DNA of 55,573 bases, from the NCBI GenBank assembly GCA_028820935.1, contig JAPPHZ010000047.1, positions 1-55,573 on the forward strand, in the 5' to 3' direction. The stretch is from a bacterium (GTDB lineage: Bacteria; Actinomycetota; Acidimicrobiia; Spongiisociales; Spongiisociaceae). The translations under genes and the position numbers were made by a program. Of the stretch, positions 2,029-38,822 are shown piece by piece. The notes beneath the pieces were generated by a model. It did not search any database and was not told where the DNA came from. It worked only from the letters and a program-made list of their open reading frames with translations. Position 1 is the stretch's first letter; every line of letters starts with the position of its first letter.

Positions 2029-5000
2029 TCAGAGGGTGCGAACGTGGGCCCGTCCATGTGTTGGGACTGGTTGTTGTCTTTTGGGTTGGGTTGTGTGGTA
2101 GCGGTGCTGTTCGATCAGGAAGATGTCGGTGTCGGTGCCGAGGAGAGTACTGAGCAGGTGGGCGGTGACCAGGTTGGTGAGGTGGGGGAAGGTGTTGTCT
2201 GGGTGTGTCCAGGGGACGTTCTGGTCGAGTGGGAGGCTTTCTTGGACTGTTCTGCTGACGCGGAGGGTGCTTTCGATGGGTTGCCATCCGCCACGTTCGT
2301 AGTCGATTGCCTGCTGTAGGGCGTTGGCGATGGTCGCCCAGGGCAGGGATTTGGCATCGGTGATCGCTTGACGCAGTTCCTCGGGTGTGACGCTGGCCGG
2401 GTCAGTACCTTGGGGTAGTTGCGCGATGGATACGGACAGAGCTTGGCGGAACGCGGGAAGGGCAACGTTGTTGAGGGCCGAGCTGGTCCCTGCCTGGTCT
2501 CCGTCGAAGCAGACTGTCAGGTGTTGACAGCCGGCTGCTTCGAGTTGGTTAAGGTGATCGCCGGTGGCGGCGGTGCCGCAGGGGGCGACTGCCGGAAGGT
2601 CGGCCTTCTGTGCGGCGATCACGTCGAGGTACCCCTCGACCATGATTGCTTGGCCGTTGGTGTCGATACGGTCGGCGATGCGGTCGAGGCCGTATAGGAC
2701 TTCGCTCTTGTGGTAGAGGTCGGTTCGGGGAGTGTTCAGGTATTTGGGTCCTTGGTCGGTGATGGCCCTTCCTGCAAAGGCGATGGTCTCTCCTGCAGGG
2801 TTGCGGATGGGGAAGACGATGCGTTCCCGCATCCGGTCATAGATGGTGCCTTTGCTGCTGGTGGCGGCTATGCCTGTGTGGAGGGCGAGTTGGTCGTTGC
2901 CTATGGGACCGCAGGCGCCACGCCAGGCGTTGCCTCCCCATCCGAGTTTCCAGGTCTTCCAGTCGTTGGGAGTTAGCCCGCGTTCGATGAGGTACCGTCG
3001 AGCGGGTTCGGCGTGGGGAGAATAGAGAAGTTGTTTGTGGTACCAGTCGGCGGCGGCGTCGCAGGCCTTCTTTAGGTCTTTTGCGGATGGAGGCGTTGGC
3101 CGGTCGGGGAGGCGACCGCGGGCGGCTGCGCGTCGCAAATCGGACAGCGTAGCGACGGCGGCGTCGTGGCGGGTCTGGGTAGCTGCTGAAAGGCCGGTGA
3201 GTGGTGCGGTTGGGCAGCGGCCGGGTTCGGGGGGCTGGGCGGCGATTAAGGACTGCCATGGTGGTTGGGAGAGGGGCTCGATGATGAGGGTGGTGGAGTG
3301 GCTGGTCAGGGAGGCCTTCAGGTGATGGTTGGCCTGGTGCCATCGCTCCACAAGCTCTCGGGGGTGTTCGTTGTTCTCCAACCATTCCTGACAGTGTGTC
3401 CACCATTGATGCCGGTCGGTGTCTTGGATGACTTTGGCTTTTTCTGGAGCGCCGAAAGTTGTGGTGGTTTCGACGGCTTGGGTTTCTCTGAGGTGGTCGA
3501 GTTCGTCCAGAAGGGGCCGGGTTCTGACAGCCCGCTGGTGGAGAGCCTGTGTTCTGACCGCGTCGGCCCAGCGACGTTCGGGCTCGGTCAGGGTGCCGGT
3601 GTGGAACCCTGCTTCGATGGCGCGGCGCAGGCCGGGATCGGCTACTCGGGCCATTATCGCCAGGTGGCGGGAGATTTGCTGGCGATTCCAGGTGCGGTGC
3701 GCCTGCTCGCATCCAACCAGAAGGGCCGAGATGGCGTCTGTGACGGCATCGCTGTAGATCCGCGGCGGATGGGGAAGCGCGTCCTTAATGATCTGGGACG
3801 CCTGCGCGGCCCCCGGAGCGAAGTGTTGCCACGGGTCCAAGAGCGGGGGTGCTGGCCGTTCGGTGGTCTCGGTCTGGTAGGTATCCCAGCCTTCCGGGGT
3901 GAAGTCTTGGTCACCGAGGCTGGCGAGGTAGTCGAGGAATCGCCGATCCCAGGCGGCCTGTTCTTCGTCGTGGGCTTGTTCGTCGTAGGTCATGTCGTCG
4001 TAGTCGGCAGCCCATTCGGCGATTTCTTCGACGATCCGTTCTTCGAATTGGCGGGTGGTCTGGTGGGTGGTGGCTTGGGTTAGCATGTGGGGCACGTCCA
4101 GACCGTCGAGGTGGGGAAGGGGTTGGTCGTGGGAGGTGTTGGTGATGGTTTGCAGGTGCTCGCTGGCTTCTTGGGCGGGAAGGGTGGAGTGGGCGTCGGT
4201 GATGGTTTCCCATCCGCCGCGGCGGCTGAACACGGTTTGCAGGACTTCTTCGCGGGGGAGCTGGGGAGGGGGCGTGTCTTCGTCATAGTCGGGTTGGTCG
4301 GTGACTACCACCAAGTGGTTTTCGATCTTGCCGCGGGTGAGACCCACGTACAGTTGGTTGAGGCGAGAGTTAGACGTGATCACGGTCATGGCGGCGTCTA
4401 CGGAGAGGGATTGCGCTCGGGTTTGGGTGATGCTGTAACCGAGTTGGACATGTTTGAGTGCGTATTCTTCGGGAATCCGCAGGAGGGCTTGGCTGTCGTT
4501 GTCGTAGCGTTGTACGGTGAGTCGGCCGCGGTGGGCGGAGCGGACTGTCCACCGGTCGCCGTTGCGGACCCACTCGCCGTTGCTGTCTACCAGGTGGCGG
4601 GAGTTGCGGCGGGTGAGGATGATGTCACCGACACGGATGGTGTTGACGCCGGTTCCTTGGATGGTGTCGCCGGTTTCACCTAGGGCGTGGCGTCGGCGGG
4701 CGATTTCGCTGTTGATTTCGTGCATGAGCGTGGAGGTTTGAGCGGAGATGACGGTGTGTTGTTCCCTACGGGGTTGCCACCAGTCGCCGGCGAGTCCGGC
4801 TACTTCGGGGTGGGTGGCTTCTTGGACGCGGTGTCGTTTGATGTGATAGGACAGGCCGGATATGTCGCCCAACCGGATTTTGATGGTGGCGAGGGCTTCG
4901 GAGCGTTCTTGGAATCGCCAGAGTTCGGAGAGGGTGACCGAAGGGGTGGTGCCCGATTTGGCGAGGGCGGTGAACATTCCACCGGCTGCGATGGCGTTTT

Positions 5001-6801
5001 GCTGGGCAGGGTCTCCGACCAGGATTACCTTGCCCTGGGTGGCGGCGGCTTTGCCGCAGAGCGCTGCCAGGTCGCGAGTGCTGACCATGCCGGCTTCGTC
5101 GACGATCACCCAGGCCCGGTGTGGGAGGGGCTGGTGCTGGGTGACGATCCGGGCTAGGGTGTCGGAGGGGACCCCGAGGCTGTTCCCGAGGGTAGCTGCG
5201 GCCACGGCGGTGGGAGCGACGGCTACGACTTTTTCGTGGCCCACCGCTTCGGCGACGCGTTGCAGCATGACGGTTTTGCCCGATCCTGCCGGGCCGACGA
5301 CTATCGCGCCGTTGGTGTGGGCGGTGAGGAGGGTGGTGACCGCGGCCGCCTGGTCGCTGCCCAGGTTCGCCAGGTCCGTTTGATCGAGGAGCGTTCTGGC
5401 AGGGGTGTCGGATTTGTCCGGTTCGCGCTCTTGCGGTGTCGAGTCGTTCTCGCTGGTAGTGGCGGAGGGGTGGATGGATTGCATCCAGGCGACAATTGCA
5501 ACTTCGGCGGCGACCATTCCTGGGGAGTACCAGCGGTCTTTTTGCTTGATGAGCCTGTCCTGGACCAGGCGGAGCAGGATATCGGCAAGACGTTCCACGG
5601 CTTCTACCGAAGACGTGGTGTTGTCCAACCGGGCGGATACGGGTCCGGCGGTGATCACGGTGTAGATGGTTTTTTTCAGGTCTATGTCGGTGAGCCTGTT
5701 TGCTTGTTGCTCTGCGGTGGCCAGGATGTGGTCGATTACTTGGGTGGAGAGTTCTATTTGGTCGGTGACGATCACTTCGGGCCGGTCGTAGCGGTCGGGC
5801 GGGAGACGTTGGGCTGTGCGGTATAGGGACAGTTGCTGTTCGGGTTCTACCCCGAGCGCTGCGGCTTCGGTGCGCCACCCCGTGTGGGGGTCTTCACCTA
5901 CCCCGTAGCGTTTGGTCGCTCGGGAGGCGATTGTGGCTGCGTTCCACAGTTCCAAACGTTCTTCCACCGTGGCGGCCCTTTGGCGTTGTTTCTCGAATTT
6001 GCGGACGCGGCGTTGGGCTTCTCGGGCTATCTCTCGGGATCGGTGGGACCAGTATTCGGACAGTTCCGCGGGGTTGCCTGCGATCTCGGCGTGCAGGTTG
6101 TCACCGACCCGATCCCAGGACCATCCCAGACGTCGGGAGAGTTCGGTGCGGAGCACCGCTGCGCCGTACAGGCTGGCGGGCATGAGATGGCGGTAGATCA
6201 GCCGCCCGTCCAAGGTGCGCCATTTCCCGTCTTCGCAGAGGACCCTGTTGTGGAACAGCAAGTGGCTGTGCAGCTGGGGGTCTCCTGATCGACTGGTCCG
6301 ATGATCGAACCGCGCTACCGGTGCTCCTTGCGGGACCTCAACTCTTTCTGTCCCGCCCGCGCCCTTGCGGGAGGCGACTGCCCAGGTTTGCATGTAGTCC
6401 ACTAATGCGTGGACGCCGGTGTCGAACGCGGCCTCGATGTGTGCTCGGGTGTGGGGATCGGATAAGGCCCAGGCGACGCTGATACTTTTCGGGGGTGAGA
6501 AGGTCAGGTCGAAGGCCGCGCAGGGGCGCCGCTCGCGGCGGATCCCGAGTTGGTCCACGAAGGTGCCTTGCACGGTGAAGCGACGCCCGAGTTGCTCGCC
6601 GGTGTTTGGTTCAACGGCGCTGAGAGAGGCTTGTAGGGCTTGATGTGTTACGACGGCGCCTGCGGCGACAGTCAGCCCACCGGCGTTTACCCACCGGCCC
6701 GGGGTATCTCCACCGTCCGTGTAGTACCCCGCCGAACCCACCGCCCGGCCTGCTGTGTAATAGGCGGCATGAGCGACGCTTTTCTTCCCGATCGACAGCA
6801 T
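2029..6801 (-). CDS. MobF relaxase - helicase - DnaG/Toprim primase fusion
   Basis: Conjugative relaxase of 1590 residues that should nick oriT, stay bound to the strand and unwind it. The N-terminus is typical MobF/TrwC: paired tyrosines Y14/Y15 and Y26/Y27, an Asp in FDLTFSPPKS (about D98) and the metal-binding His set H178, H180, H184. A superfamily 1 (RecD-like) helicase follows, with Walker A GPAGSGKT (503-510), Walker B VIVDEAG (565-571) and a late YVGLTRGK motif (818-825). Unusually, residues about 1250-1530 form a DnaG-type primase core plus Toprim domain with E1389 in EGYLDV and D1433/D1435 in FDGDQAG. The CHC2 zinc finger of DnaG is absent. The primase could prime second-strand synthesis in the recipient. 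The ATG at 6801 follows a conserved operator and -10 box. Confidence 0.93.
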   Translation of the reverse strand: MLSIGKKSVAHAAYYTAGRAVGSAGYYTDGGDTPGRWVNAGGLTVAAGAVVTHQALQASLSAVEPNTGEQLGRRFTVQGTFVDQLGIRRERRPCAAFDLTFSPPKSISVAWALSDPHTRAHIEAAFDTGVHALVDYMQTWAVASRKGAGGTERVEVPQGAPVARFDHRTSRSGDPQLHSHLLFHNRVLCEDGKWRTLDGRLIYRHLMPASLYGAAVLRTELSRRLGWSWDRVGDNLHAEIAGNPAELSEYWSHRSREIAREAQRRVRKFEKQRQRAATVEERLELWNAATIASRATKRYGVGEDPHTGWRTEAAALGVEPEQQLSLYRTAQRLPPDRYDRPEVIVTDQIELSTQVIDHILATAEQQANRLTDIDLKKTIYTVITAGPVSARLDNTTSSVEAVERLADILLRLVQDRLIKQKDRWYSPGMVAAEVAIVAWMQSIHPSATTSENDSTPQEREPDKSDTPARTLLDQTDLANLGSDQAAAVTTLLTAHTNGAIVVGPAGSGKTVMLQRVAEAVGHEKVVAVAPTAVAAATLGNSLGVPSDTLARIVTQHQPLPHRAWVIVDEAGMVSTRDLAALCGKAAATQGKVILVGDPAQQNAIAAGGMFTALAKSGTTPSVTLSELWRFQERSEALATIKIRLGDISGLSYHIKRHRVQEATHPEVAGLAGDWWQPRREQHTVISAQTSTLMHEINSEIARRRHALGETGDTIQGTGVNTIRVGDIILTRRNSRHLVDSNGEWVRNGDRWTVRSAHRGRLTVQRYDNDSQALLRIPEEYALKHVQLGYSITQTRAQSLSVDAAMTVITSNSRLNQLYVGLTRGKIENHLVVVTDQPDYDEDTPPPQLPREEVLQTVFSRRGGWETITDAHSTLPAQEASEHLQTITNTSHDQPLPHLDGLDVPHMLTQATTHQTTRQFEERIVEEIAEWAADYDDMTYDEQAHDEEQAAWDRRFLDYLASLGDQDFTPEGWDTYQTETTERPAPPLLDPWQHFAPGAAQASQIIKDALPHPPRIYSDAVTDAISALLVGCEQAHRTWNRQQISRHLAIMARVADPGLRRAIEAGFHTGTLTEPERRWADAVRTQALHQRAVRTRPLLDELDHLRETQAVETTTTFGAPEKAKVIQDTDRHQWWTHCQEWLENNEHPRELVERWHQANHHLKASLTSHSTTLIIEPLSQPPWQSLIAAQPPEPGRCPTAPLTGLSAATQTRHDAAVATLSDLRRAAARGRLPDRPTPPSAKDLKKACDAAADWYHKQLLYSPHAEPARRYLIERGLTPNDWKTWKLGWGGNAWRGACGPIGNDQLALHTGIAATSSKGTIYDRMRERIVFPIRNPAGETIAFAGRAITDQGPKYLNTPRTDLYHKSEVLYGLDRIADRIDTNGQAIMVEGYLDVIAAQKADLPAVAPCGTAATGDHLNQLEAAGCQHLTVCFDGDQAGTSSALNNVALPAFRQALSVSIAQLPQGTDPASVTPEELRQAITDAKSLPWATIANALQQAIDYERGGWQPIESTLRVSRTVQESLPLDQNVPWTHPDNTFPHLTNLVTAHLLSTLLGTDTDIFLIEQHRYHTTQPKRQQPVPTHGRAHVRTL

Positions 6802-9295: not shown

Positions 9296-9363
9296 CGTTC
9301 GTGGACCGTTCGCAAGGGAAACGAACGCTTTGCGAACGTTCGCCGATGAGCGAATGGCATGGT
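9296..9363 (+). promoter_or_regulatory. Ribonucleotide reductase promoter with shared operator
   Basis: CGTTCG at 9296-9301 and 9307-9312 and, inverted, CGAACG at 9322-9327 and 9333-9338, all with 11-bp periods. Exactly 19 bp after the last half-site is CATGGT at 9358-9363 (-10 box). Transcription would start near 9370, giving a leader of about 30 nt that includes GAGAGGAG before the ATG at 9400. Confidence 0.75.
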
Positions 9364-9399
9364 GTACCCAAGGGTTTCCCATTTGAGAGGAGCGATGAC

Positions 9400-12300
9400 A
9401 TGTTCACCACAGGGACGGATCGGCTTCCGGGTCGAGGGATGCAGGGGCCGCTGACTGATGCTGGCGAATGCGCTCGGAATGTTCGAGCGGCCCGTCGGGA
9501 ACTGGTGCGCACCGAAGCCGCTAGGGATGTCGCATACGAGACGGCGATGTCCCTGGGGGACTTGGACGACGCGCCCAGGGAATTGTTGGAAGTGATCTGG
9601 TCCGCCGAGGACGACCATGCCGCCGCCGAGTTCCGGTATTTGGAAGCGAAACGAGCCTTCACCGAGATGGCGGCCGTCGTGGGGCCGGGCCTGTGCGATT
9701 CGGTCTGGCGGCAGGGCTGTGATTGTCTCCCCAATGGACCGGGCGGTACTCTGCCAGCGGCCAGTGTGGGCTGCAACCCTCTGGGTGAACTGTCGCCAAC
9801 GGCGCATGTCGCTCCGACCGCTGGGAATGTGGGAGGTATGGCGACGGCCCAGACGGTGGACACACATCGTGGTGAATTGGGAGGAACGGAAGGGAGGCCA
9901 GGTTTGGTTGGTGTGAATGGTTTGAAGATTGATCGGCGGTACACCACTGCCGGTGAGGATCCGTACAGTGGGGTGACGTGGCAGCGGCGGGACGCTCGCA
10001 TCACCAACCCGGACGGTTCGGTGGTGTTCGAGATGGAAGGCGCGGAGGTGCCTGCCGGTTGGTCGAGGGTGGCATCGGACATCATCGTCTCCAAATACTT
10101 CCGGAAGGCGGGTGTTCCGACCGACGGCGACCATCTGGATTCGGAACGGTCTGCCCGGCAGGTGTTTGACCGGCTCGCCGGAACGTGGCGACGGTGGGGT
10201 GAAAGACTTGGATACTTCGCCTCTGCTGGGGACGCGGCGGCGTTCGAGGACGAGATGCGGTACCAGCTGTGCAGGCAGATGGGCGCACCGAACTCGCCAC
10301 AGTGGTTTAACACCGGATTGAACTGGGCCTACGGACTGACCGGCCCGCCGCAGGGATTCTGGTTTGTCGATCCCGAGACCGGAGAGATGGCCCCTTCCCC
10401 GGATTCCTACTCCCACCCGGCGCCTCACGCCTGTTTCATCCTCAAGGTCGAGGACGATCTGGTCAATCCGGGAGGGATCATGGATCTGTGGCTGCGGGAG
10501 TCCCGCGTTTTCAAGTTCGGTGCCGGTGCCGGCTCCAATTTCTCCGCTATCCGAGCCGAAGGCGAGCGCCTGTCCGGCGGCGGCACGTCCTCGGGGGTCA
10601 TGTCGTTCCTGAGGGTCGGGGACCGGGCGGCTGGAGCTATCAAATCGGGCGGCACCACCCGCCGCGCGGCCAAGATGGTCATTCTTGACATCGACCATCC
10701 CGACATTGAGGCCTTCATCAACTGGAAGAAAGAGGAGGAGGAAAAGGCCAGGATCCTCATCGAACAAGGCGGGTTCCCTGCCGACTTCAACGGAGAGGCG
10801 TACGCCACTGTGTCGGGGCAGAACTCCAACAACTCGGTGCGGGTCACCGACCGATTCCTGCGAGCCGTGGAGTCCGACGGTGAGTGGCGGCTAACCGAGC
10901 GCACCACCGGCAGGGTGGTGAGGACCGTCCGGGCCGGGCACCTGTGGAACAGCATCGCCGCCGCCGCGTGGGCTTGCGCTGATCCCGGGGTCCAGTTCGA
11001 CACCACCATCAACGACTGGCACACCTGCCCTGAGGGTGGCCCCATTCGGGGTTCCAATCCCTGTTCGGAATACATGTTTTTGGACAACACGGCCTGCAAC
11101 CTGGCGTCTTTGAACCTGGTGGCGTTCTACGACGAAAAGACTCGGTCCTTCGACGTGGACGGGTTTCTGCACACCATTCGCCTGTGGACGATCATGTTGG
11201 AGATCTCCGTGGCCATGGCCCACTTTCCTTCCCGGGAGGTGGCCCGGGGTTCCTACGACTACCGCACCCTCGGCCTGGGTTACACCAACCTCGGGTCTCT
11301 GTTGATGCGCCAGGGCATCCCGTACGACTCCCCCCAGGGAAGGGCAGTCGCCGGCGCGGTGACCGCGGTTCTGACCGGCCACGCCTACGCCACCTCTGCG
11401 GAAATCGCCCAAGCAGTGGGCCCGTTTCCCAGGTTCGACGAGAACCGGGAGGCGATGCTGCGGGTGATCCGGAACCATCGCCGCGCCGCTTACGACGCTC
11501 CCCCAGGGGAGTACGAGGGGCTGTCCCGGACGGTGATGGGCGTGAGCAGACGGTATTGCCCCCCTGACCTGGCCCAGGCCGCCCGCGATGTTTGGGACCG
11601 GGCTTTGGCCCTGGGGGAGGTGCATGGGTTCCGCAACGCCCAAGTAAGTGTTCTCGCGCCGGGCGGGACCGTCGGATTGGTGATGGACTGTGACACCACC
11701 GGGGTCGAACCGGACTTTGCGCTGGTCAAGTTCAAGAAACTGGCCGGCGGTGGTTACTTCAGGATCGTCAACAATGCGGTGGAACCCGGGTTGCGGGCTC
11801 TCGGGTACGACGACGAGCAGCGGCGAGCGATCCTCGAGTACATGGTCGGAACGGGATCTCTCGAAGGGGCTCCGCATGTCAACCGTTGCAGCCTGAGATC
11901 GCACGGGTTTTCTGACACCGACCTGGACAGAATGGAGGGGGACATGGGTGATGGGTTCGACCTCCGGTCGGCGTTCGACGTCTTGGCTGTCGGCGATGTC
12001 ACCTTGCGCCGCCTCGGCGTCCCACCCGACTTGGCCGAGCAGCCCGACTTTGATCTGCTGCGGTGGCTCGGGTACACACCGGAGCAGATCCGAGCGGCCA
12101 ACGACCATGTGTTCGGCCGGCACGCCATCGAGGGCGCACCGCATCTGCAGAGAGAGCATCTGGGGGTGTTCGACACCGCCAACCGCAACGGCCGGCATGG
12201 GCAACGGTTCATTCACTACGAAGGGCACATCAGGATGATGGCCGCCGCTCAGGCGTTCATCTCAGGTGCCATTTCCAAGACCATCAACATGCCCAACGAG

Positions 12301-13351: not shown

Positions 13352-13466
13352 AAGGGCCGCCACCGAAAATGTTTCACACCCTACAGAAAGCATGGCTGTA
13401 CCATGAATAGTGGCTCCGGTCGCTGGTTTTACGAACAACTGTTGTTGTTCGGTTTGGAGGAGGAAG

Positions 13467-14111
13467 ATGGTGAACATCGCGTTGCCCCCGTCGCAGGAGA
13501 TAGCCCGCTGTCGGGTACCGGAGACGATCGGGATCCAGGCGCGGATAGGCCAGATGGGCACCGCGGCGTGGACGTGGATGGCCATGTGGTGTCCACGCCA
13601 CTTGGCAACAATCAGCGACCAGGAAGCACATTTCAAGACCCTGGACCGCAAACTGGAGCGGATCCTGACCGAATCGGAGATCCGGATAGGACAGCAACTG
13701 GGAGTGACCGATCTGGACGACCCGGACCAGATGGCAGAACCCCAGGAGGTAGCGATGGCGAACTTGCGAGCCGACTGGGTGGAGGTGTGCAGGGAGGAAC
13801 CGACTCCGGTGTGGGATCCGGAGTGGACGGAGTTCAAGGTGGCTTACGGGGAGAGCCTGTGGGGCCGCTACCAGGGCCTCCCGATCGACATGCTGGCGAG
13901 AGAGATAATCGAGCACATGGGCCCGGTGAAGCTGTGGTGGACGGCGGCGAAACGCCAGCGGCAACGGGAACTGCAGCAGATTCTGGACAGGGAGATGTCA
14001 CCGCTGGGACGGCATCTCACGTTCGACCTGGCGGCGCGGATGGCCAGGAGGCTCGATCCGCCGCCGGCGGAGATGGGCGAGTTGGTGAACTACCCGAGCC
14101 CACCCTACTAG
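13467..14111 (+). CDS. Hypothetical protein (214 aa) overlapping the methylase-helicase frame
   Basis: Starts at ATG 13467 behind a strong GGAGGAGGAAG. Composition is normal (Trp-rich helical stretches such as WTAAKRQRQRELQQILDRE), unlike the Gly/Asp/Arg/Pro-rich translation of the overlapping frame, so this is the real coding frame here. It is predicted soluble and mostly helical. I do not recognise a family. It ends at TAG 14109-14111, about 20 bp before conserved methylase sequence begins in the -1 frame. It may be a separate, translationally coupled gene, or the N-terminal domain of the methylase-helicase split by a frameshift. Confidence 0.65.
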   Translation: MVNIALPPSQEIARCRVPETIGIQARIGQMGTAAWTWMAMWCPRHLATISDQEAHFKTLDRKLERILTESEIRIGQQLGVTDLDDPDQMAEPQEVAMANLRADWVEVCREEPTPVWDPEWTEFKVAYGESLWGRYQGLPIDMLAREIIEHMGPVKLWWTAAKRQRQRELQQILDREMSPLGRHLTFDLAARMARRLDPPPAEMGELVNYPSPPY

Positions 14112-19225: not shown

Positions 19226-20251
19226 TTGGCCAGCACAAAGCGCATCGACAGAGTCCAGGCGGTAGCCACCGAAGTGGCCCAGGCCATGGCCACAGCCATG
19301 GAGAGCAACCCAAGCCGGTGGACCCAACCGTGGAGCGCCCTCGGTGCCGCAACCCCCCACAACCCCGTCTCCGAAGTGATCTACAACGGCATAAACCGGT
19401 GGGTGCTGACCGTGGCCGGTGTGACCTTCGGCGACGACCCGAACGCCTGGGCCACATACCGTCAATGGCAACAGGTCGAATGCCAGGTACGCCGCGGGAT
19501 GCACGGCGTCTACATCATCCGGCCCATGTTCACCCGCTGCTGTAAGGACAGGAAGTGCCGGGACGGTGACCTGTGCGGCAACTCCCGCCGCCTAGTCGGA
19601 ATCACTACCCATACCGTTTTTCACCACACCCAGGTGGACGGCGAAGTCCCACAAGACCCACGGTTCACGGCCGTAGAGCACGCTTCCTTTGAGCATGAAG
19701 AGATCGACAGGATGTTCGACACCCTGGGAGCGACCCGCGAATACGGCGGCGACGAGGCCTGCTACACCCCGGAGACCGACCGTATCCGGATGCCCAAGCC
19801 AGAGCAGTTCTTCGACGTCGGCGGCTACGCCTCGACCATGGCCCACGAATACGCCCACTGGACCGGCCATCCCTCCCGCCTCAACCGCTTCGACGAATCC
19901 ACGATCCCCAGCCGGGAGGAACGGGCCTTCGAGGAACTTACAGCCGAACTCGGGTCGGTCATCATCTGCAACGCCCTCGGAATGGAACACGAACCACCCC
20001 CCCAGCACGCTGCCTACCTCACCTCTTGGACCAAGGCACTCAAAGGCGACAACGGCGCGGCGATCATGCTCACTGCCTCATCCCAAGCCACCAAAGCGGC
20101 CGCTTGGATCGTGAACGGCATCCAACGAGGACTGGAACAAGGACGCACCACCCCCGCAACCGAGGTGATCGTCGCCCAGCAGAAACCAACCAACGTCCTC
20201 CCCCAACCGGCCCGCACCGAGACCGTGGCAGCCCGCGGTCTCAGCTTGTAA
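19226..20251 (+). CDS. ardC: ArdC-type antirestriction protein with zincin domain
   Basis: 341 residues. The N-terminal ArdC domain (NPSRWTQPWS, ATPHNPVSEVIYNGIN) binds single-stranded DNA in characterised relatives. The C-terminal zincin peptidase-like domain has HEYAH at 207-211 followed by WTGHPSRLNR, and a downstream Glu in ELTAELGS. It probably shields the entering strand from host restriction. Start is TTG 19226, five bases after GAGGAGGA; no better start exists. A Cys-rich insertion (CCKDRKCRDGDLC, about residues 98-112) is unusual and might bind a metal. A diverged paralogue lies at 30188. Confidence 0.88.
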   Translation: MASTKRIDRVQAVATEVAQAMATAMESNPSRWTQPWSALGAATPHNPVSEVIYNGINRWVLTVAGVTFGDDPNAWATYRQWQQVECQVRRGMHGVYIIRPMFTRCCKDRKCRDGDLCGNSRRLVGITTHTVFHHTQVDGEVPQDPRFTAVEHASFEHEEIDRMFDTLGATREYGGDEACYTPETDRIRMPKPEQFFDVGGYASTMAHEYAHWTGHPSRLNRFDESTIPSREERAFEELTAELGSVIICNALGMEHEPPPQHAAYLTSWTKALKGDNGAAIMLTASSQATKAAAWIVNGIQRGLEQGRTTPATEVIVAQQKPTNVLPQPARTETVAARGLSL

Positions 20252-21441: not shown

Positions 21442-24231
21442 GTGGTGCGTGTCGTTCGAGTGTTCACACAGGCCCGCAGGCGGCCTAGCGAAATAGGCCG
21501 CCTACCGGGTTTGAGCCTTCCCTGGACGTTCACTATTGCCCAGTTCTGTGTTGGGGCGGTGGGCTGTCTGGCGGCGTTGTGGATGCTGAGGTCGGGGGTG
21601 CATGTTCTGTTGGCGTTGGTTGTGGTAGGGGCTACCTTGCTGCTCGGGCGGTCATTGCGACGAACGCGGGTCGACGAGCGGTCGATGGTGACAGGCGTGG
21701 CCGGGTGGCTCCGGTGGCGTTTGCGGCGGCGGGTGTGGAAGCGGTTGGCACATCGCATGGCTGATGCCGTAGTAGACAATGTGGTGGTCGGGAGAGATCA
21801 TTCGGCTTGGATGGTGTTCGCGGTCGGGTCGCCACATTATGGGATGTTGCTGGACACCCAAGCCGCGTTGGGGTCGCTGGATGCGGTCGAACGACTGGTC
21901 GAGTCGGTGACGGCCCGGCGGTGGCGGTTGGTGTCCACGCTGGCTACCGTGGACGCGGACACTGTGGCGGCGCGTATGGCCGCCACGTCCGACCGTGAGT
22001 CGTGGCGGGTAGAGATAGAGGCGGAGCGGAAGCGGTTATCACGGGGGATGGAGTTGACAGAACGTAGGTTTTGGCTTTGGGTGGAGGGCGATGTAACGGC
22101 TGAACCGGCGGGGCCGGTGGCGCGATATGCGCATCGAGTGCAACGGATGTTGGGGTTGGCGGCACCCGCCCGGGCGAGTTGGGTGGACAGGGAGGCCATG
22201 GCCCGGGGGGCGGAGGCGACGGTTGCCAGGGCCGCCAATGCGGTGGGGCTGCGACCGGCGACTACCGGCGAGGTGATGGAGTTGTTGGAGCGTATCCCTC
22301 GGGGGTCTGCGTTCGTTCCCCCACCGGAGCCCGACGACGACTTGCCCCATTTGCTGCCGGTGCCCAAGCCCGGTGGGGTGATGATCGGCAATGGGATGGT
22401 GGACGGCGGATCTGCCTGGCGGCTGGGAGAGGCTATGTGGGCGGAACCGATCCGGGGGGTGGCGGTGGCGGCGATGCCGTTTGATGGGAGGGTGGCGCAC
22501 ACCACGGCCGTGGTGGCCCAGTTGCCGAACGCCTGGCGGTTGCCCGGCGGCGGAGAGCTGTTGTGGAGGTTGGACAAGTTGGATGCTCCTTGGGAGTGGT
22601 GTGTGGATGTTTCGGTGGTGCCGCATTCGGTGGCGGCTGCGAAGACCCGCAATCAGGCGCGACGACTGACCTCGGAATATGCCCAGTTTGCGGGGGATCC
22701 AGCCGGCCCGCCGCCGGAACTGGACTTGGCCCACGAGTTGGTGGAGACCCAGCGGAGGGCGTTGGCCGAGAGACAGAACTCCGACGAGTTGGTGATCTCG
22801 GTGGCGTTGGCTACTGCGGTCCGGGTGGATGGCGAAGATGTAGTGGCAGCCGGGGAGCGATTGAGGCGCAGGGTTGAGGGGTTGCGAGGCCTGGCCGCAT
22901 CGGTTCAGGTGACTTTGGGTGTGCCTTCAGGTGATCAGGTCGCCGCGCGGCGGTGGTGGGCTCCGCAACGGGTCCTGGGGCCGGTCGCTAGGGATTATCG
23001 ACAGTATGTCATGGCTGATGGTTTGGCAGGCCTGGGCCCGTGCCTTCAGTCGCAGTTGGGAGATCCCCGGGGAGCGTTGTTGGGGATGATGGACGATCGT
23101 GGCGTTCCGGTACCGGTGTTGTTCGACCCCACCCTGGGTCCACGGGCACAGTCGGTGGGTGGCCACCCCCGCTCACCCTCGATGGGAATCGCGGGGAAGT
23201 TAGGGTCCGGCAAGTCGGTCTTCGCCAAAAGGGTGCTGTGGACGGCGCTGGCCGCCGGCGGCCGGGTTGTGGTGGTGGATCGAAGCAATATGGACAATGG
23301 CACCGGCGAGTATGTGGAATTCGGTAAGGCGATCGCCGGGCTCTCTCCGGAGATCTCCGTGGAAGTGATCAATGTGACTGATCCTGCGGCTGGGAGCATC
23401 GACCCGATGCGGGCCATACCCGACCGGGAGTTGGCGGCTAAGACGGCAGTGAAGCTTTTGTCTTATGCGGCCGGGCTGGATCCCCGCTCCAAGGTGGCGT
23501 CGGCGATAGCTCGAATGGCGTCGGAGCGGCACGGTGTCCCGCTGTTGTCGATGGTTCGGGAGGCCGCAACAGGGGCGCCTGAAGGTGGGGGCTGGTCGCG
23601 GATCGTGGATTTGGTGGAGGTGCTGGCAGCCGACCAGATCGGTGGTGCGCTGTTTGATCCACGACGCCCACCTGCCGACCTCACTGCCGACCTGATCGTG
23701 TTGCATGCCCCCGGGCTGTCGCTCGTGGAGACGCCTGATACCCCCTCGGAGGTGGCAGCGACGGCGGTAGTGCTGGGTTTGATGTTGGTGGCCCGGGCGG
23801 TAATCGCTCCCCCGGAGCGGTACGGGGCCCTGCTGTTGGATGAGGCATGGTCGGTGTTGGACGATGTGAGATCCCGGAGTGTGGTGGTGGAATCGATCCG
23901 TGACGGGCGGAAGCACAACGCTGCTGTGCTGTTGGCCACCCAGTCCCCTTCGGACTTTTATGCCTCTGCCGAGTTGGCCGAATTGTTGGGATACTTCGCC
24001 GTGTTTGGTGTCGAGACAGAGTCCGCGGGACAGGCCGCAGCCAAGCTGGCGGGGATCGACCCCGACCTAGCAACACCGGCTCTCATGTCCCTGCCGACGG
24101 GTGTGATGATGTGGCGTGATGTTTACGGCAGGAACGGTCTGGTCGACGTGTTGCTTCCTGCCGACCCGCGGCTGGCAGCGGCGATCGACACGACCCCCGC
24201 GGCGTCCGAGCGGTCGGCGGCGGTGTCGTGA
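21442..24231 (+). CDS. VirB4-family conjugation ATPase with N-terminal membrane segment
   Basis: 929 residues. Two hydrophobic helices lie within residues 30-75, like a VirB3/PrgI-type part fused in front. The ATPase domain has Walker A GKLGSGKS (about 588-595) and Walker B ALLLDEAW (about 796-803), plus the late ATQSPSDF motif typical of VirB4/TraC. It should power substrate export and channel assembly at the cytoplasmic membrane. Start GTG 21442 lies 14 bp after the preceding gene. The next gene overlaps its stop by ATGA-type coupling. Confidence 0.9.
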   Translation: MVRVVRVFTQARRRPSEIGRLPGLSLPWTFTIAQFCVGAVGCLAALWMLRSGVHVLLALVVVGATLLLGRSLRRTRVDERSMVTGVAGWLRWRLRRRVWKRLAHRMADAVVDNVVVGRDHSAWMVFAVGSPHYGMLLDTQAALGSLDAVERLVESVTARRWRLVSTLATVDADTVAARMAATSDRESWRVEIEAERKRLSRGMELTERRFWLWVEGDVTAEPAGPVARYAHRVQRMLGLAAPARASWVDREAMARGAEATVARAANAVGLRPATTGEVMELLERIPRGSAFVPPPEPDDDLPHLLPVPKPGGVMIGNGMVDGGSAWRLGEAMWAEPIRGVAVAAMPFDGRVAHTTAVVAQLPNAWRLPGGGELLWRLDKLDAPWEWCVDVSVVPHSVAAAKTRNQARRLTSEYAQFAGDPAGPPPELDLAHELVETQRRALAERQNSDELVISVALATAVRVDGEDVVAAGERLRRRVEGLRGLAASVQVTLGVPSGDQVAARRWWAPQRVLGPVARDYRQYVMADGLAGLGPCLQSQLGDPRGALLGMMDDRGVPVPVLFDPTLGPRAQSVGGHPRSPSMGIAGKLGSGKSVFAKRVLWTALAAGGRVVVVDRSNMDNGTGEYVEFGKAIAGLSPEISVEVINVTDPAAGSIDPMRAIPDRELAAKTAVKLLSYAAGLDPRSKVASAIARMASERHGVPLLSMVREAATGAPEGGGWSRIVDLVEVLAADQIGGALFDPRRPPADLTADLIVLHAPGLSLVETPDTPSEVAATAVVLGLMLVARAVIAPPERYGALLLDEAWSVLDDVRSRSVVVESIRDGRKHNAAVLLATQSPSDFYASAELAELLGYFAVFGVETESAGQAAAKLAGIDPDLATPALMSLPTGVMMWRDVYGRNGLVDVLLPADPRLAAAIDTTPAASERSAAVS

Positions 24232-26373: not shown

Positions 26374-28077
26374 ATGGGTAGCAAAAGGCACCATCGGGCC
26401 ACGGCGGCGGCTGCGGCCGGGACGGATGCGTTCCGAGCGTTCCATGGGGATGTGGTTTCTGCGGGGCGGTTGGTGTGGTCGGTGCTGCGCAGCCGCTGGT
26501 TGCGCCGCCTGGTGGCGGTGTTTGCGGTGGTCATTGGAACCCTGGGGCTGGTACTGTTCGATGGCGAGCCGCTCAATGGAACGTCCCGGTGGAATGGGAC
26601 AGCCGGGCTGGCGTTTGGGGTCCCGCCTCGCCTGTGGGTCGCCTATCAGGCATCGTCGAGGGTGTGGTGTTTACCGTCCGGGGAGGTGGCGTTGAGCGGC
26701 GAACCGATGGCGGCACCGTGGATGCAGACCGACTGGCGGCTGGTGGCGGCAGTCGGGAGGGTGGAATCGGCTCATGCGTCCGGTGTTGAGATCGACGCGT
26801 TCGGGGATACCAGCCCGTGGTTTTTTGGTCCGATGTTGGATGGGTCCAACCCGCAGTGGCTAACTGTTAGCGACAGCGACGGTGGGCGTTGGGATTTGAC
26901 GGAGGAGTGGGATCGGGCGGTGGGGCCTATGCAGCTTCTGCCTCAGACCGTGGCGTCGCATGGCATTGACGGCAACGGGGATGGGATCGTGAGCCCTCAT
27001 AACGTGTGGGACGCTGCCGCGTCGGCTGCCTATTACCTGTGCGTCGCCGGGGGATCGTCCCGGGACCGAGTGCAGGCGCTGTTTGCTTATAACCGGTCGG
27101 AGGAGTATGTGAGGGATGTGCTGGGGTTCTACGCCGAGTTCGTAAACGCTGAATTACCGGCGGAGACGACGCCGCGGTTCCCGGCGGGTGCGCCGTTGGC
27201 GTATGTGCCACCGTTGGGACCGGTCGCCGACATCAGCGGCGACGGGTCGCCCCAACCCGCATTGCGGGCGTTCTTGCATCGCCTCGGTCGGGGAGAGTTC
27301 CTGGAAGATGTGGAGGTGGTGTGCGCCGGTGACGGGGGATGCGTTTGGACGGCGGACCGCGGGACCGACTGGGTTGGCCAATGGGATGGTCTGCGGAAAG
27401 TGGGGTTCGCCGGTCCGGTCCGGTTCGCCGACCTAGGTGTGGCTGTGCTGGGGGAGGCGGCCCGGTATGTGCGCGTGGCGCCGCTGCCGAACAGTGGGGG
27501 AGAGTTGAGTTGGCCGGTGGCTCTGCGGCCGCCGCCGCAGCCCTCCAGGGCCGCGCCGCCCGCCTGGTTCTCGGCGCATGTTCCGATGGTGGACGGCAGC
27601 TGGACCGCACCCGGCGACATGGTGGTGTTACCGACTGTTCCCGGGCAGTGGGTGTTCGCCCCGACGGAGGGCACCGTCAGGGTCGACGGGAGGTCCGGTT
27701 GTGTGATTGTGGTGGACGGCGAGGGGTGGACTTGGTCGGTGTGCGGCGTGGCCACAGAGCACCGAACCGGAAAGGCACCGGCAGGGGTGGGTATAGCCTC
27801 GGCGGAAGGGGAGGTGGCTTTGCGGCTTGTCAGTCCCGAGGGGAGGGACGCCTGCCTGCAGCGGCTATTCGGCCTATGGTCGGCGGACCGGGCGGTAACC
27901 CCGGGCCAGTTGGATCGAGACATCAAGGCGTGGCAAGCGAGGGCCGTCCGGTTGGCCGCCGACGCGCTGGCCGAGAGGGTAGTGAACGAGAGGCTGGAGT
28001 TGGCGGTGCTGGCTGCCGAGGCCCGGGCCGAGACGGATCGGTTGGAGAGGGCATTGTATGAAAGTTGCAGGACATGA
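26374..28077 (+). CDS. Membrane-anchored lytic transglycosylase (VirB1-like)
   Basis: 567 residues from ATG 26374, 4 bp after the previous stop; an upstream extension of the frame is a shadow. One membrane helix lies at about 45-62. The following domain is an MltB/SLT-type transglycosylase: catalytic Glu in VGRVESAH (about 131), GPMQLLPQTV (about 184-193) and NVWDAAASAAYYLC. It should open peptidoglycan for the secretion channel. The C-terminal part (about 400-510) resembles the beta-rich LytM/M23 fold (VFAPTEGTVRVD) but lacks its metal-binding His residues, so it is likely structural or wall-binding; that reading is tentative. A coiled coil closes the protein. Confidence 0.82.
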   Translation: MGSKRHHRATAAAAAGTDAFRAFHGDVVSAGRLVWSVLRSRWLRRLVAVFAVVIGTLGLVLFDGEPLNGTSRWNGTAGLAFGVPPRLWVAYQASSRVWCLPSGEVALSGEPMAAPWMQTDWRLVAAVGRVESAHASGVEIDAFGDTSPWFFGPMLDGSNPQWLTVSDSDGGRWDLTEEWDRAVGPMQLLPQTVASHGIDGNGDGIVSPHNVWDAAASAAYYLCVAGGSSRDRVQALFAYNRSEEYVRDVLGFYAEFVNAELPAETTPRFPAGAPLAYVPPLGPVADISGDGSPQPALRAFLHRLGRGEFLEDVEVVCAGDGGCVWTADRGTDWVGQWDGLRKVGFAGPVRFADLGVAVLGEAARYVRVAPLPNSGGELSWPVALRPPPQPSRAAPPAWFSAHVPMVDGSWTAPGDMVVLPTVPGQWVFAPTEGTVRVDGRSGCVIVVDGEGWTWSVCGVATEHRTGKAPAGVGIASAEGEVALRLVSPEGRDACLQRLFGLWSADRAVTPGQLDRDIKAWQARAVRLAADALAERVVNERLELAVLAAEARAETDRLERALYESCRT

Positions 28078-30191
28078 GAGGGTCTTCTAGGTCCCAGAGG
28101 GCCCACCCGAGATTGTTCGAGTGGGGAGGTGTCGAGTGGTGGGTTCTGATACCTGGTGGTCTCCTGTTCGGATATGTGGTGTTGACCGCCGCTTTGTGGC
28201 TTGGGACCTTCGTTGTCGGCGCTGACGCCGGGTGGGCATCACCCGCGGACATGTTGGGTCTGGTGTGGGCCATGCTGTCGCTGGGTCATCGGCTCGATGA
28301 GGCTTGGCTGTTGGGCGGCCACGCGCACGCGGTGGCGGCGGCGGGATGGCTGTGGGGGATAGCCACCACCGTGGCAGTGGCGCTGTGCGGCACGGGAATG
28401 GCGGTGTGGGAGTGGTGGCAAGCCGACCTGCCGTTACCGAAGGGAAAGCCGAAAGCGCGGCGCATGAAGGAGGTACGTCTTAGGGATTGGCCGATCAAAC
28501 CGCCCTACTCGCCGACCCGACCGGGCGCCGGGCTGCTGCTGGGCCATCCCCGTTATCGCCGCGGCAAGGTGACCGTCGCGGTGGACGGTCTGCCCGGTCT
28601 GGTGATAGGCCCGACGGGATCGGGCAAGACCCGCCACGTCATCGGCCCGAACATTGCCCATTGGCCGGGTCCGGTAGTGGCTACCTCGGTCAAGACGGAT
28701 CTGGCCGAGTTAACCCTGCCGCATCGGCAGCCCAAGGGCCGGGTCTTCGGCTACGAACCCACCGGACGGCTGTGGCCGTGGATGCAGGAACTGGGAATAA
28801 CACCAGTCGTTTGGGATCCCGTGGCGATCCTCAACGAAGTGGGAGCCACAAGGGAGAACGCCGATCTGCTGGCACAGTTCCTTTCCTCCCAGTCGTCCGC
28901 GCACCAGGCAGGCTCGGCGGGCCTGTGGGCAAGACTCAGCCACCAGGTCATCTCCCAGGTGCTGCTGGTGGCCGCCGAAACAGGCCACTCCCTATATGAC
29001 GCTCAAAACTGGCTGGCCAACCTGGTCGAATTCCGCCAAAAGGAGATCGACCCGGACCAACTCAGCGCCCAAGGAAAGTTGAGTATGAAACGGCTCCGGG
29101 AAATGGCCGCCAAGGACCCCAAACTATTGGGAAGCGTAGAGGTCTCCATCCTCGAGGTCGCCAACGCCCTGACCTTCACCGCCGAGAACCCCGACGCGCC
29201 GTCCCTGCCCACCACCGTCACCACCGCCGACAGTCAGGACACCCTCTATCTGATAGCCGATCACCTGAGCCAGGGAACCCACCAGGCGGTGTTCGCCGCC
29301 GTTCTGCGACACCTATTTCACCTCACCGAAACCCATCACCCGCCGGCGGGAGAGGAACCCCCGCGGCCCCTGTTTGCTCTGGACGAGTTGGCCAACCTGG
29401 CCCGGCTGAAAGACTTCCCGCAAGTGCTCTCCACCATCCGGTCTCACGGTCAGGTGCTCACTGGGCTCCAGGAACTGTCGCAGCTGGTGGCCGGGTGGGG
29501 GAGAGACAACGCCACCACCATCATCGGGAACCATCCCACCAAAATACAACTCGGGGGCAGCTCCGACGCCAGCCAGCTCCAGGCGTGGGCCACGCTGAGC
29601 GGCAAACCCGACGACGACAACAAGCACACCGACCCAGCAAGTTGGCGGAAGATCAAACCCGGGCGGGGCAGAGTCCTGGCCGGAGACATGGATCCATTCG
29701 ATCTGCGCCTGGTGAAACCACAACGGTGGCTTAACCCTCTGGGAGAGAAGCCCGAGCGGAATGGGAGTCCCCCGACCCCAACGCCACCAACGAGGCCAAC
29801 TCCAGGAGGGGAGACCGCCGTATTCAACGGTCCCTCTGAAACGGAGGGGGCTTTCGGGGGGTTCGACCTACAGGAAATGTGCCAAGCCGAACAGTTGACA
29901 ATCGAACCGATCACCGTTCCCAACCCAACCACCCAGGACCCAGCGGAAGGGCCCTTCCTGCCGGTACCGATCGCCGACCGCAACGCCGAAGCCTACGCAC
30001 GGTCGCAAGCCACCGCGGAAGACCCGCTGCCCTCTGATGGGGGAGGGCACCGGTCGGAAGTCCACCCGGACGTGCAGTACCGATTCGACGAAGACGGGGA
30101 CGAATGTTGGCGGTGGGCGGGTGAAACCGAATCGCATTACGGGGAACCACCGAGTATCGAATACGACAGCGTAGGGGGATACGAACTATGA
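28074..30191 (+). CDS. VirD4/TraG-family type IV coupling protein
   Basis: 705 residues. Membrane helices lie in the first 120 residues. The ATPase domain has Walker A GPTGSGKT (about 179-186) and Walker B PLFALDEL (about 432-439), followed by TGLQELSQL. It brings the relaxase-DNA complex to the channel. Start ATG 28074 overlaps the preceding stop (ATGA); an in-frame TTG 28065 is less likely. After about residue 550 the protein has a Pro/Asp/Glu-rich acidic tail, a common site for substrate recognition in this family. Confidence 0.92.
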   Translation: MRGSSRSQRAHPRLFEWGGVEWWVLIPGGLLFGYVVLTAALWLGTFVVGADAGWASPADMLGLVWAMLSLGHRLDEAWLLGGHAHAVAAAGWLWGIATTVAVALCGTGMAVWEWWQADLPLPKGKPKARRMKEVRLRDWPIKPPYSPTRPGAGLLLGHPRYRRGKVTVAVDGLPGLVIGPTGSGKTRHVIGPNIAHWPGPVVATSVKTDLAELTLPHRQPKGRVFGYEPTGRLWPWMQELGITPVVWDPVAILNEVGATRENADLLAQFLSSQSSAHQAGSAGLWARLSHQVISQVLLVAAETGHSLYDAQNWLANLVEFRQKEIDPDQLSAQGKLSMKRLREMAAKDPKLLGSVEVSILEVANALTFTAENPDAPSLPTTVTTADSQDTLYLIADHLSQGTHQAVFAAVLRHLFHLTETHHPPAGEEPPRPLFALDELANLARLKDFPQVLSTIRSHGQVLTGLQELSQLVAGWGRDNATTIIGNHPTKIQLGGSSDASQLQAWATLSGKPDDDNKHTDPASWRKIKPGRGRVLAGDMDPFDLRLVKPQRWLNPLGEKPERNGSPPTPTPPTRPTPGGETAVFNGPSETEGAFGGFDLQEMCQAEQLTIEPITVPNPTTQDPAEGPFLPVPIADRNAEAYARSQATAEDPLPSDGGGHRSEVHPDVQYRFDEDGDECWRWAGETESHYGEPPSIEYDSVGGYEL

Positions 30192-31624
30192 CAGAGCAGA
30201 ACAGTCCAGGTGCCGTAGGGCAGGAGTTGGCGAGCGCAATCGCCATATCCATCGAGACCAACCCCAACACCTGGACCCGACCGTGGAGCGTCACCGGCGA
30301 AGCCACACCCCACAACCCGATCACCCACGAGATTTACCGTGGCGTCAACCGTCTCCTGTTGTCCAACGCCGCCTACGCCGAAGCACACAAGGTGGGAGCG
30401 TGGGCTACCAAACGGGACTGGCGCAGGGCCGGGATCGACGTGGAACCCGACCGTCCCGGCATTGCCATAGTTGTGCCATCAGAAACAACCTGCTGGGACG
30501 ACCCCGCCTGCGACGACGGGTGCGGCAAAGCCACCATCCGGGGCTTCCGGACTTCCACCGTCTTTCATTACACCGCCACCGGAAGCGACCAGCCACCGGC
30601 CACCCATCCCCGCTTCCAGACAGCGCCACCAGCCTTCACCGCCGACCAGATAAGCGAAATGTTCGCCGGGTTGGGCGCCGCCATCGAAACCGGTGCCCAA
30701 CCGTACTACTCGCTAACCACGGATCGAATCACCATACCCACATCGGACATGACAGCCGGCCTCGACCACTGGGTCTCGACCCTGGCCCGGGAACACATCC
30801 ACTGGACCGGCCATCCCTCCCGACTTAACCGGCAAGTCCGCAAGGCCACCAGCCGACAGCAAGCCCTACAACAGTTGGTCGGAGAATTCGGGGGACTGCT
30901 GCTGACCAACTCTCTGGGACTGCACTACCACCCGGGGCAGGAGAATCAGAGCACACGACACGCATGGGTGTCACAACTGCAAGGCAGCACGGGCGGGCGC
31001 GTCATCAGCGAAACGGTCGCATCGGCCTGCGCCGCCGCGCAGATGATCAGAAACGGCCTGAACCCCATTCCCCAAACGTCCCGACACCAGCCAACAGCCA
31101 CCGAACCAACGTCCGACCACGAACCGTCCAACCCACCAGCCCCCAAAGCCGGCCGGCCGAAGACCAAAAGACCCCGAAGGCGACGCCGCCGGGTAAGGGT
31201 GTTCACCCGCAAAACCCACTCCTCGCCGCCGCTCACCACCCCAACCGAACCAAAACCCGAGCCGGTCACCGAGATGGCGTCCGCCGCCACGGCACCTGAC
31301 GAAGAATCCAACGATCACGACCGCCGCACAGTTGCATGGTGGATCATGGAACGGGTGGCCGCCGACAACGGCGACGACGAAACCGCCTCGCAAACCATCG
31401 CAGACCTCCTCGACCTTCCCGCCGAACACTGCCAGCGCCCACCATCCGCCGCCCCCGGCCATGCCTCCCGGGAAGAACGCCTCCGAGTAGCGAAGTGGAT
31501 GCTGGAACAGGTCATCGCCGACAACGACGACCCCACCGAAGGAGCCCACCACATCGGGCGCCTGCTGGGAATCGCACCCCGCGAAATCCAACCACCCCAG
31601 AACGATCAGGCCATGCACCTATGA
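30188..31624 (+). CDS. Second ArdC-like protein with altered zincin active site
   Basis: 478 residues, clearly a paralogue of the protein at 19226: shared NPNTWTRPWS, ATPHNPITHEIY and the identical HWTGHPSRLNR. At the active site the HExxH of the first copy becomes REHIH (201-205), so the first zinc-ligand His is Arg, while the downstream Glu (GEFGG) is kept. Metal binding and peptidase activity are probably lost or changed. It also has a Cys cluster (CWDDPACDDGC). A long C-terminal tail is Pro/Lys/Arg-rich (about 300-360), followed by two similar acidic helical segments (HDRRTVAWWIMERVAADN and REERLRVAKWMLEQVIADN). It overlaps the coupling-protein stop by ATGA, so it is made together with the secretion machinery. 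Confidence 0.8.
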   Translation: MTEQNSPGAVGQELASAIAISIETNPNTWTRPWSVTGEATPHNPITHEIYRGVNRLLLSNAAYAEAHKVGAWATKRDWRRAGIDVEPDRPGIAIVVPSETTCWDDPACDDGCGKATIRGFRTSTVFHYTATGSDQPPATHPRFQTAPPAFTADQISEMFAGLGAAIETGAQPYYSLTTDRITIPTSDMTAGLDHWVSTLAREHIHWTGHPSRLNRQVRKATSRQQALQQLVGEFGGLLLTNSLGLHYHPGQENQSTRHAWVSQLQGSTGGRVISETVASACAAAQMIRNGLNPIPQTSRHQPTATEPTSDHEPSNPPAPKAGRPKTKRPRRRRRRVRVFTRKTHSSPPLTTPTEPKPEPVTEMASAATAPDEESNDHDRRTVAWWIMERVAADNGDDETASQTIADLLDLPAEHCQRPPSAAPGHASREERLRVAKWMLEQVIADNDDPTEGAHHIGRLLGIAPREIQPPQNDQAMHL

Positions 31625-37289: not shown

Positions 37290-38822
37290 GTGCTGTTCGT
37301 GGTGTTTGATCGGGCGTTGGAGTCGAAGGGGGTGGCGACCTGGGTGCATACGGAGATGGTGAGGTCGGCGGCGCGGGTGTTGGGCGGTGATGTGGGGTTG
37401 GGGTGGGACAGTCCGGATCCATTGGCGTCGGCGGAGATTGTGGGGGCGTTTTCGGATGCGCCGAATCAGAGGTTGGGGCAGACAGCTGCCGAAGCGATGG
37501 GGGTGGTGGCGGTGACCACGCAGCCTCCGGTTGGGATCCGGAAGCTGTTGGGGTTGCAGGGGGCTGGTGGGAGGGTGGAACTGGGGGTGGTGATGGTAAC
37601 CGACGAGGCAGTGGACGAGACACAGATCAAGATTCAAGTGGCGGCGTCGTGGGTGTTGTCCGTTTCGGCAGAGGGGACCAAAAGGGAGTTGCGGAAGATC
37701 CGGCGGGTGCGGAAATGGTTGGCTTGGAAGGCGGCGGAGTCTCATCGGTTGGACGAAGCGGACGGGCGGAAACGTCGGCGGGGGGCGGTGGTGGCGGCTA
37801 GTGAGCCGTTCCACGAGTTGATTGCCGAGAAGGGTGTCGAGGAGATACAGATCCGAGGTTCGCAAAGTATGTATGTGTTGTTTGCGAACGGGGATCGGGA
37901 GAAGCGGCCGTCGCCGTTTCCGACGGATGCGGACCTGTTGGAAACTTTGAGGACGGTGGCGTCGCATGGCGGGTCGAAGAAGCTGTTCTCGCCGATGCGG
38001 CCGATGTTGGATGTGCAGTTGGCGCCTCAGTGGAGGTTGCATGGGGAGGGGTTTGTTAGCAGCCCGACCAATGCGGTGTTGCGTTACAACATGGGCGGCA
38101 CCAAGACTCTGTCTGAGCTGGAGGTTGCCGATGAGGGGTTGTTGTCGTTGTTGGTGGGGGCGGCAGCCGGTGACGTGCGGGCGAATGTGATGGTGGCGTC
38201 GCCGCCGAGCGGGGGGAAGACCACGATTGTGCAGTGCATTTGTGGGGAGGTTGCGGAGTCGGAGCGGATCGACACGATCGAGGACACCAAGGAGTTGATG
38301 CTGTCGGAGTATGGGATCCATGAGAACACGATCGCCCGGTTCACGAGGGACGAGAACCAAGAGGGCGTCGCGGTGTTTTCAATGGCCGATCACATTCGGG
38401 CGGCGAAGCGGGCCAACAGCAGCAAGGTGGTCGTGGGGGAGATCCGCGGGGAGGGGACAGAGGCCATGTTGGACACGTTTTCGTCGGGCTGGGTGGGGTG
38501 TTTGGCGACCATTCACAGTCCACCGGGGGCGGGGATGTTGCAGAAACTGGTGCAGTATGCCACCAGCGAGGGAGCGACGGAGAGGTATGCGAGGCGTCAG
38601 ATCGCCAATGGGGTGGATTTGTTGGTGTGGATGGGCCTTAACGAGCAGAACGAGCGGGTGGTGGCGGATGTGACTCAGGTGCTGGGTATCGACGAGCGGT
38701 CGGGGCTTATCCGCACCCGGGGGTTGTGGAAGTGGCACCCGGGGGGTCGGTGGGCGGTTCCGACCGGGAAACCGGAGGGGCGGATAGCGGACCTTTACGA
38801 GTCGGTGGGGGTGGCGTTGTGA
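37290..38822 (+). CDS. tadA: TadA/CpaF-type secretion ATPase
   Basis: 510 residues. An unrecognised N-terminal region of about 170 residues precedes the CpaF/VirB11-like hexameric ATPase domain. The P-loop is SPPSGGKTT (about 305-313), a less common form than GPTGSGKT. The rest is canonical: TIEDTKEL (about 329-336), VVVGEIRGE with the catalytic Glu (about 380-388), and the His box LATIHS. It drives pilus assembly from the cytoplasm. Being VirB11-related, it could also serve the type IV secretion channel, which has no VirB11 of its own in this window. Start GTG 37290; the next gene overlaps its stop (GTGA). Confidence 0.87.
   Translation: MLFVVFDRALESKGVATWVHTEMVRSAARVLGGDVGLGWDSPDPLASAEIVGAFSDAPNQRLGQTAAEAMGVVAVTTQPPVGIRKLLGLQGAGGRVELGVVMVTDEAVDETQIKIQVAASWVLSVSAEGTKRELRKIRRVRKWLAWKAAESHRLDEADGRKRRRGAVVAASEPFHELIAEKGVEEIQIRGSQSMYVLFANGDREKRPSPFPTDADLLETLRTVASHGGSKKLFSPMRPMLDVQLAPQWRLHGEGFVSSPTNAVLRYNMGGTKTLSELEVADEGLLSLLVGAAAGDVRANVMVASPPSGGKTTIVQCICGEVAESERIDTIEDTKELMLSEYGIHENTIARFTRDENQEGVAVFSMADHIRAAKRANSSKVVVGEIRGEGTEAMLDTFSSGWVGCLATIHSPPGAGMLQKLVQYATSEGATERYARRQIANGVDLLVWMGLNEQNERVVADVTQVLGIDERSGLIRTRGLWKWHPGGRWAVPTGKPEGRIADLYESVGVAL

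Follow-up and report, generated by a model that had tools for sequence, protein, structure and literature searches.

According to a 2025 review of type IV secretion systems (T4SS), the extra domain of conjugative relaxases is a helicase in the MOBF family and a primase in the MOBQ family, and the same review cites that the primase linked to MobA is needed for mobilization (PMC12857230). The closest published precedent for the protein described here is TraA_Ti of Rickettsia bellii, in which relaxase, helicase and Toprim are combined in one protein, and the authors of that study believed that only rickettsial relaxases have such a primase (PMC4564193). That transferred proteins of several domains can include a Toprim primase is already known, and the Toprim primases TraC1 and SogL have been reported to be transferred and to prime in the recipient (PMC5512222).

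We analysed a window of 55,573 nucleotides, which corresponds to one whole contig (C47) of a genome in the Spongiisociaceae. The segment at 2029-6801 holds, on its minus strand, a single uninterrupted frame of 1590 amino acids that starts with an ATG at position 6801, with the motif AAGG immediately 5' of this codon; the plus strand of the same segment is stop-rich. Four Pfam domains, all above the gathering score, follow each other in the order TrwC (residues 11-315), AAA_30 (480-663), DNAG_N (1254-1374) and Toprim_2 (1386-1469), and by sequence the frame joins a relaxase of the MobF type to an SF1 helicase and to a DnaG catalytic core that is complete (Table 1). A sequence-only reading had claimed a relaxase, a helicase and a DnaG/Toprim core in one polypeptide, which is borne out by the Pfam, NCBIfam and phmmer matches, and had extended the primase core to residue 1530, which is too far, as the recognisable core stops near residue 1475. 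The E-values and three further homologues with the same domain order exclude a chance match.

Table 1. Features of the fused gene and of the conjugation genes in the window.
Feature	Position	Strand	Remark
Whole gene, MobF relaxase - SF1 helicase - linker - DnaG core	2029..6801	-	1590 aa
TrwC/MobF relaxase domain	5848..6789	-	Residues about 5-318; Pfam and NCBIfam above cut-off
SF1 (AAA_30/RecD-type) helicase	4282..5379	-	Residues about 475-840
Linker	3055..4281	-	Residues about 841-1249
DnaG RNA-polymerase core (DNAG_N + Toprim)	2377..3054	-	Residues about 1250-1475
Short C-terminal tail	2029..2289	-	Residues 1505-1590; without DnaB_bind match
ArdC-N + MPTase (zincin) protein without primase	19226..20251	+	
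VirB4/TcpF-like conjugation ATPase (AAA_10)	21442..24231	+	50-62% identical to C49 copy
VirD4/TraG-type coupling protein	28065..30191	+	
Second ArdC-N + MPTase protein without primase	30188..31624	+	
VirB11/TadA-type secretion ATPase	37290..38822	+	

The protein bears the marks of the MobF family, namely a TrwC domain (PF08751, 1e-63, 215.8 bits as compared to a cut-off of 25), paired tyrosines in motif I (Y14, Y15, Y26 and Y27), a three-histidine metal site (H167, H178 and H180) and a C-terminal SF1 helicase; the NCBIfam model for MobF (NF041492) scored 196.1 bits against a cut-off of 100, and no MobA/MobL relaxase domain was found among the Pfam matches of the protein. We infer that the fused protein would nick oriT. 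The helicase (AAA_30, 8e-45) contains a Walker A motif GPAGSGKT at residues 503-510 and VDEAG at residues 567-571 as Walker B, both read from the sequence. No Pfam family above cut-off was identified in the linker at residues 841-1249, which AlphaFold predicts to be all helical at low confidence (pLDDT 43, with only two sequences in the alignment).

The C-terminal part matches DNAG_N (1e-28) and Toprim_2 (6.5e-11), and its best solved relatives in a phmmer search are the E. coli DnaG cores 1EQN and 1DD9 (6e-40). Alignment to these cores places E1389 at the EGY glutamate, D1433 and D1435 at the DGD pair, exactly where these three residues had been said to be intact, and D1467 at the first aspartate of the third motif. 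With D1393, K1353 and K1365, all elements of a DnaG-type catalytic core are present (DNAG_N, Toprim, the glutamate, the DxD pair, the third-motif aspartate and the basic residues), and the equivalents of these seven residues are retained in all 11 fused cores compared. The earlier statement that the CHC2 zinc finger is missing holds for the entire protein, which has no CxxC or CxxH motif. Measured as a housekeeping DnaG, the protein thus lacks CHC2, and its whole-protein score for the dnaG model TIGR01391 is below the cut-off (207 bits as compared to 283.6), because the alignment of residues 1239-1482 covers model positions 108-355 of 414 and begins only after the missing zinc-finger end. Neither the DnaB-binding domain PF10410 nor ArdC-N was found in the fused protein with Pfam. 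AlphaFold gave no usable model of the primase core (pLDDT 43, from the two-sequence alignment), and the assignment to the DnaG-core fold is safe by sequence homology.

A second copy was identified in the same genome on contig C49, with 42% identity over residues 2-1503, although it is cut at the contig edge and its tail is scrambled. A third copy is present in genome G010 of the same family (JAPPFW010000028, MAG RHO1_bin_3), and a fourth, of which only the 3' half is preserved at the start of a contig, in genome G006 of the same genus. Identity between the window and the G010 copies is 56% in the relaxase, 54% in the helicase and 50% in the primase core, as compared to 30% in the linker. For the primase core, a dN/dS ratio of 0.22 was estimated between the C49 (L004) and G006 (L093) copies, which belong to the same genus, and this low value indicates that the core is under purifying selection. 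A search of genome contigs for related loci recovered one locus, again the G010 contig, and none was found in a search of viral contigs. Outside the window's own family, a primase was found in only one (G589) of 40 MobF loci, drawn from samples of the class and phylum and picked towards long frames; few MobF relaxases thus have the fusion, and MobF transfer does not require it. No hidden primase was detected in other very long MobF proteins (L024, L037, L038 and L042-L044).

Fusions of the same kind are also present on plasmids. Relaxase, helicase and DnaG core are joined in single proteins of Nocardioides pNOCA01, Pimelobacter pA-N39, Dermacoccus, Miniimonas pS16-1 and the Variovorax PBS-H4 plasmid, while public records name these proteins only "MobF family relaxase" and leave the primase out of the annotation. 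In Nocardiopsis exhalans (L006:4632-11387, +), the DnaG core is located between the relaxase and the helicase. Further proteins annotated as mobF in Nocardioides QY071, in other Nocardiopsis and in a second Pimelobacter record were recovered as matches only. In Paenarthrobacter pTC1, the relaxase-helicase and dnaG are separate genes in one cluster, and no homology was found between the linker and the middle gene of pTC1. On a Ruania plasmid (L010:3533-8372, +), the three parts lie in frames that overlap, two of which share the divided DnaG core, and this copy appears to be frameshifted or decaying. The record of Variovorax PBS-H4 plasmid 2 (L008) is proteobacterial and holds a fused MobF of actinomycete type together with a DUF4192 gene, which may reflect a cross-phylum transfer or a mis-assigned replicon.

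In the DnaG-core tree, one clade (99/99) holds the window family, a second (99/96) the ArdC-type primases and a third chromosomal DnaG, with the fused cores of actinomycetes spread across a starred branch. Forcing all fused cores together gave a tree that was 41.5 log units worse (AU test, p 0.0008), and a single origin was thus rejected. The relaxase-helicase tree requires five changes of the fused state, all forced by well-supported branches, although this tree of 57 rows was made with the short search and some of these changes may be losses. At least two independent origins of the fusion can safely be read from these trees.

As to the source of the primase, genomes of the same order contain an unfused MobF gene that is divergent to a gene for an ArdC-peptidase-DnaG protein (contigs C6, C14 and C22 in G017 and C18 in G042). 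The latter protein, of about 657 residues, combines ArdC-N with a segment that resembles a peptidase and a DnaG core that lacks CHC2, and it matches DnaB_bind weakly; this is the layout of RP4 TraC1. The window core is sister to the ArdC-DnaG cores with moderate-to-weak support (78/93), and a grouping with chromosomal DnaG was not rejected (p 0.08). On the simplest reading, the primase would have moved between two transferred proteins, from the ArdC-peptidase protein to the relaxase.

The conjugation ATPases and the coupling protein in Table 1 suggest that the gene product is the relaxase of a conjugative element that bears a T4SS, and the backbone on C49 is related to this element with roughly 35-60% identity. 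No overlap was found between the contig ends in a check for a closed circle. Both elements contain a gene for NrdJ, a vitamin B12-dependent ribonucleotide reductase (window 9301-13176, +; C49 L004:13273-15933, +), which could supply dNTPs for second-strand synthesis. The window also encodes a protein of 1861 residues (13403-18988, +) with weak methyltransferase-like and helicase matches and 42% identity to a protein on C49 (L099), which makes it a very large candidate protein for anti-restriction or defence. At the right contig end (47069-55377), a possible defence island is indicated by genes with PADLOC matches that are weak to moderate (PDC-S39, LmuA-like and PDC-M14A), and near the left contig end (557-1306, +) there is a short frame that resembles a tyrosine recombinase and whose catalytic domain is incomplete.

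We suggest that this relaxase probably brings its own DnaG-type primase, and that the core primes the transferred strand in the recipient. The fused protein would nick oriT and stay covalently bound to the 5' end of the transferred strand, and the T4SS would pilot the protein-bound strand into the recipient, where the DnaG core would prime this single strand with RNA, and synthesis of the complementary strand could begin without waiting for the host primase. Helicases of this class move along the transferred strand in the 5'-3' direction, as is established for F TraI, and one strand would therefore be shared by primase and helicase, in a primosome-like geometry similar to that of T7 gp4. Nicking, piloting and 5'-3' unwinding are proposed because they are established for MobF proteins, and priming of the incoming strand because the DnaG core is intact and because of the roles of the transferred TraC1 and SogL and the MobA-linked primases. 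In the sister elements, the primase would be provided in trans on the ArdC-peptidase-DnaG protein encoded beside the relaxase, while in the window element it is on the relaxase instead, with ArdC-peptidase proteins that have no primase. Recipient-side priming is plausible on this basis and is strengthened by the gene neighbourhood and by the repeated fusion.

It is unlikely, but not far-fetched, that the core works in the donor and primes vegetative or replacement-strand replication, coupled to the relaxase-helicase. Relaxase-helicase proteins have functions in the donor as well, and the many plasmid dnaG matches show that some plasmids carry a stand-alone DnaG for their own replication. However, primers on the exported strand would turn it double-stranded, and for replacement synthesis in the donor the 3' end that nicking produces can be elongated. 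Moreover, the primases adjoining unfused MobF genes are of the ArdC type, a class reported as transferred proteins.

DnaG recognises its templates via the CHC2 finger, and since this finger is absent the activity of the fused core could be weak or need a partner, which is the chief doubt about the proposed mechanism. Divergent neighbours of the fused relaxase on C49 (L004:5509-7095, +) and in G010 (L016:8804-10264, +) have an intact CHC2 finger and a DnaG/Toprim core that has lost most catalytic residues. The only CHC2 fingers in the genome are in chromosomal dnaG (C29) and in the gene beside the relaxase on C49; the window's own contig has no CHC2-bearing partner gene. A split conjugative primase, in which the relaxase-tethered core would provide catalysis and the CHC2 neighbour template recognition in trans, is quite improbable on this sequence evidence, and the neighbour gene is also present at sites without a fused relaxase detected in the vicinity (G010 C16 and G013), so the link is not exclusive.

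It is very doubtful that the DnaG core is kept for template or single-strand binding or for replisome contacts, and not as a working primase. The absence of both the CHC2 finger and a recognised DnaB-binding domain would fit such a role, but the catalytic residues are kept in every fused core across at least two origins and mostly lost in the genuinely degenerate neighbours of two of them, which serve as a built-in negative control, and the dN/dS ratio of the fused core is low. That the fusion arose as an artefact of assembly or annotation, or that the gene is a hybrid in decay, is scarcely credible, since in spite of draft contigs and the truncated, scrambled C49 copy it is contradicted by the uninterrupted frame, by purifying selection and by the same domain order in other genomes or contigs of the family as well as in records of complete plasmids.

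We consider the repeated origin of the fusion to be the most interesting point. The first priming of a conjugating strand after it enters a new host matters for plasmid establishment and for host range, and a covalently attached DnaG core would free this step from finding the host primase. The repeated and independent joining of the two functions, as fused, inserted, operonic or divergently encoded neighbours, suggests that one and the same protein brings the strand in and primes it, and is a natural experiment that points to selection, in actinobacterial MobF systems, for having transferred proteins do the priming.

Compared to the MobF proteins TrwC of R388 and TraI of F, the window protein has the same TrwC domain, paired tyrosines and three-histidine motif, followed by an SF1 helicase, but adds about 750 residues after the helicase and ends in a DnaG core. 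MobA-RepB' of RSF1010/R1162 differs in having a MOBQ relaxase, no helicase and a primase that is not of the DnaG/Toprim type. Relaxase and primase are nevertheless joined in one polypeptide in both, and the primase of MobA-RepB' is cited as important for mobilization in the T4SS review (PMC12857230). The "polyvalent" ArdC-MPTase-Toprim primases such as RP4 TraC1 share the CHC2-less DnaG/Toprim core (PMC5512222), also on a protein that is sent to the recipient and whose genes adjoin unfused MobF in genomes of the same order, but there the primase is on the ArdC-peptidase protein and not on the relaxase. The "MobF family relaxase" fusions of actinomycetes and Variovorax have the same domain order and keep the catalytic residues, but differ by a separate origin of the fusion in both trees, a longer relaxase region and a linker that cannot be aligned. 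TraA_Ti of Rickettsia bellii is alike in its three-activity layout and proposed role, and differs in having a MobA/L (MOBQ-type) relaxase and a UvrD-type helicase in place of TrwC/MobF. The sequence-only reading did not know the present combination as a described protein, and this stands in so far as no published MobF-primase fusion was found in the open-licence PMC literature; as a novelty the fusion is no singleton, being already present in public plasmid records and in further copies of the family. What would be new is the MobF version, whereas a relaxase-helicase-Toprim protein with a MobA/L relaxase is already known.
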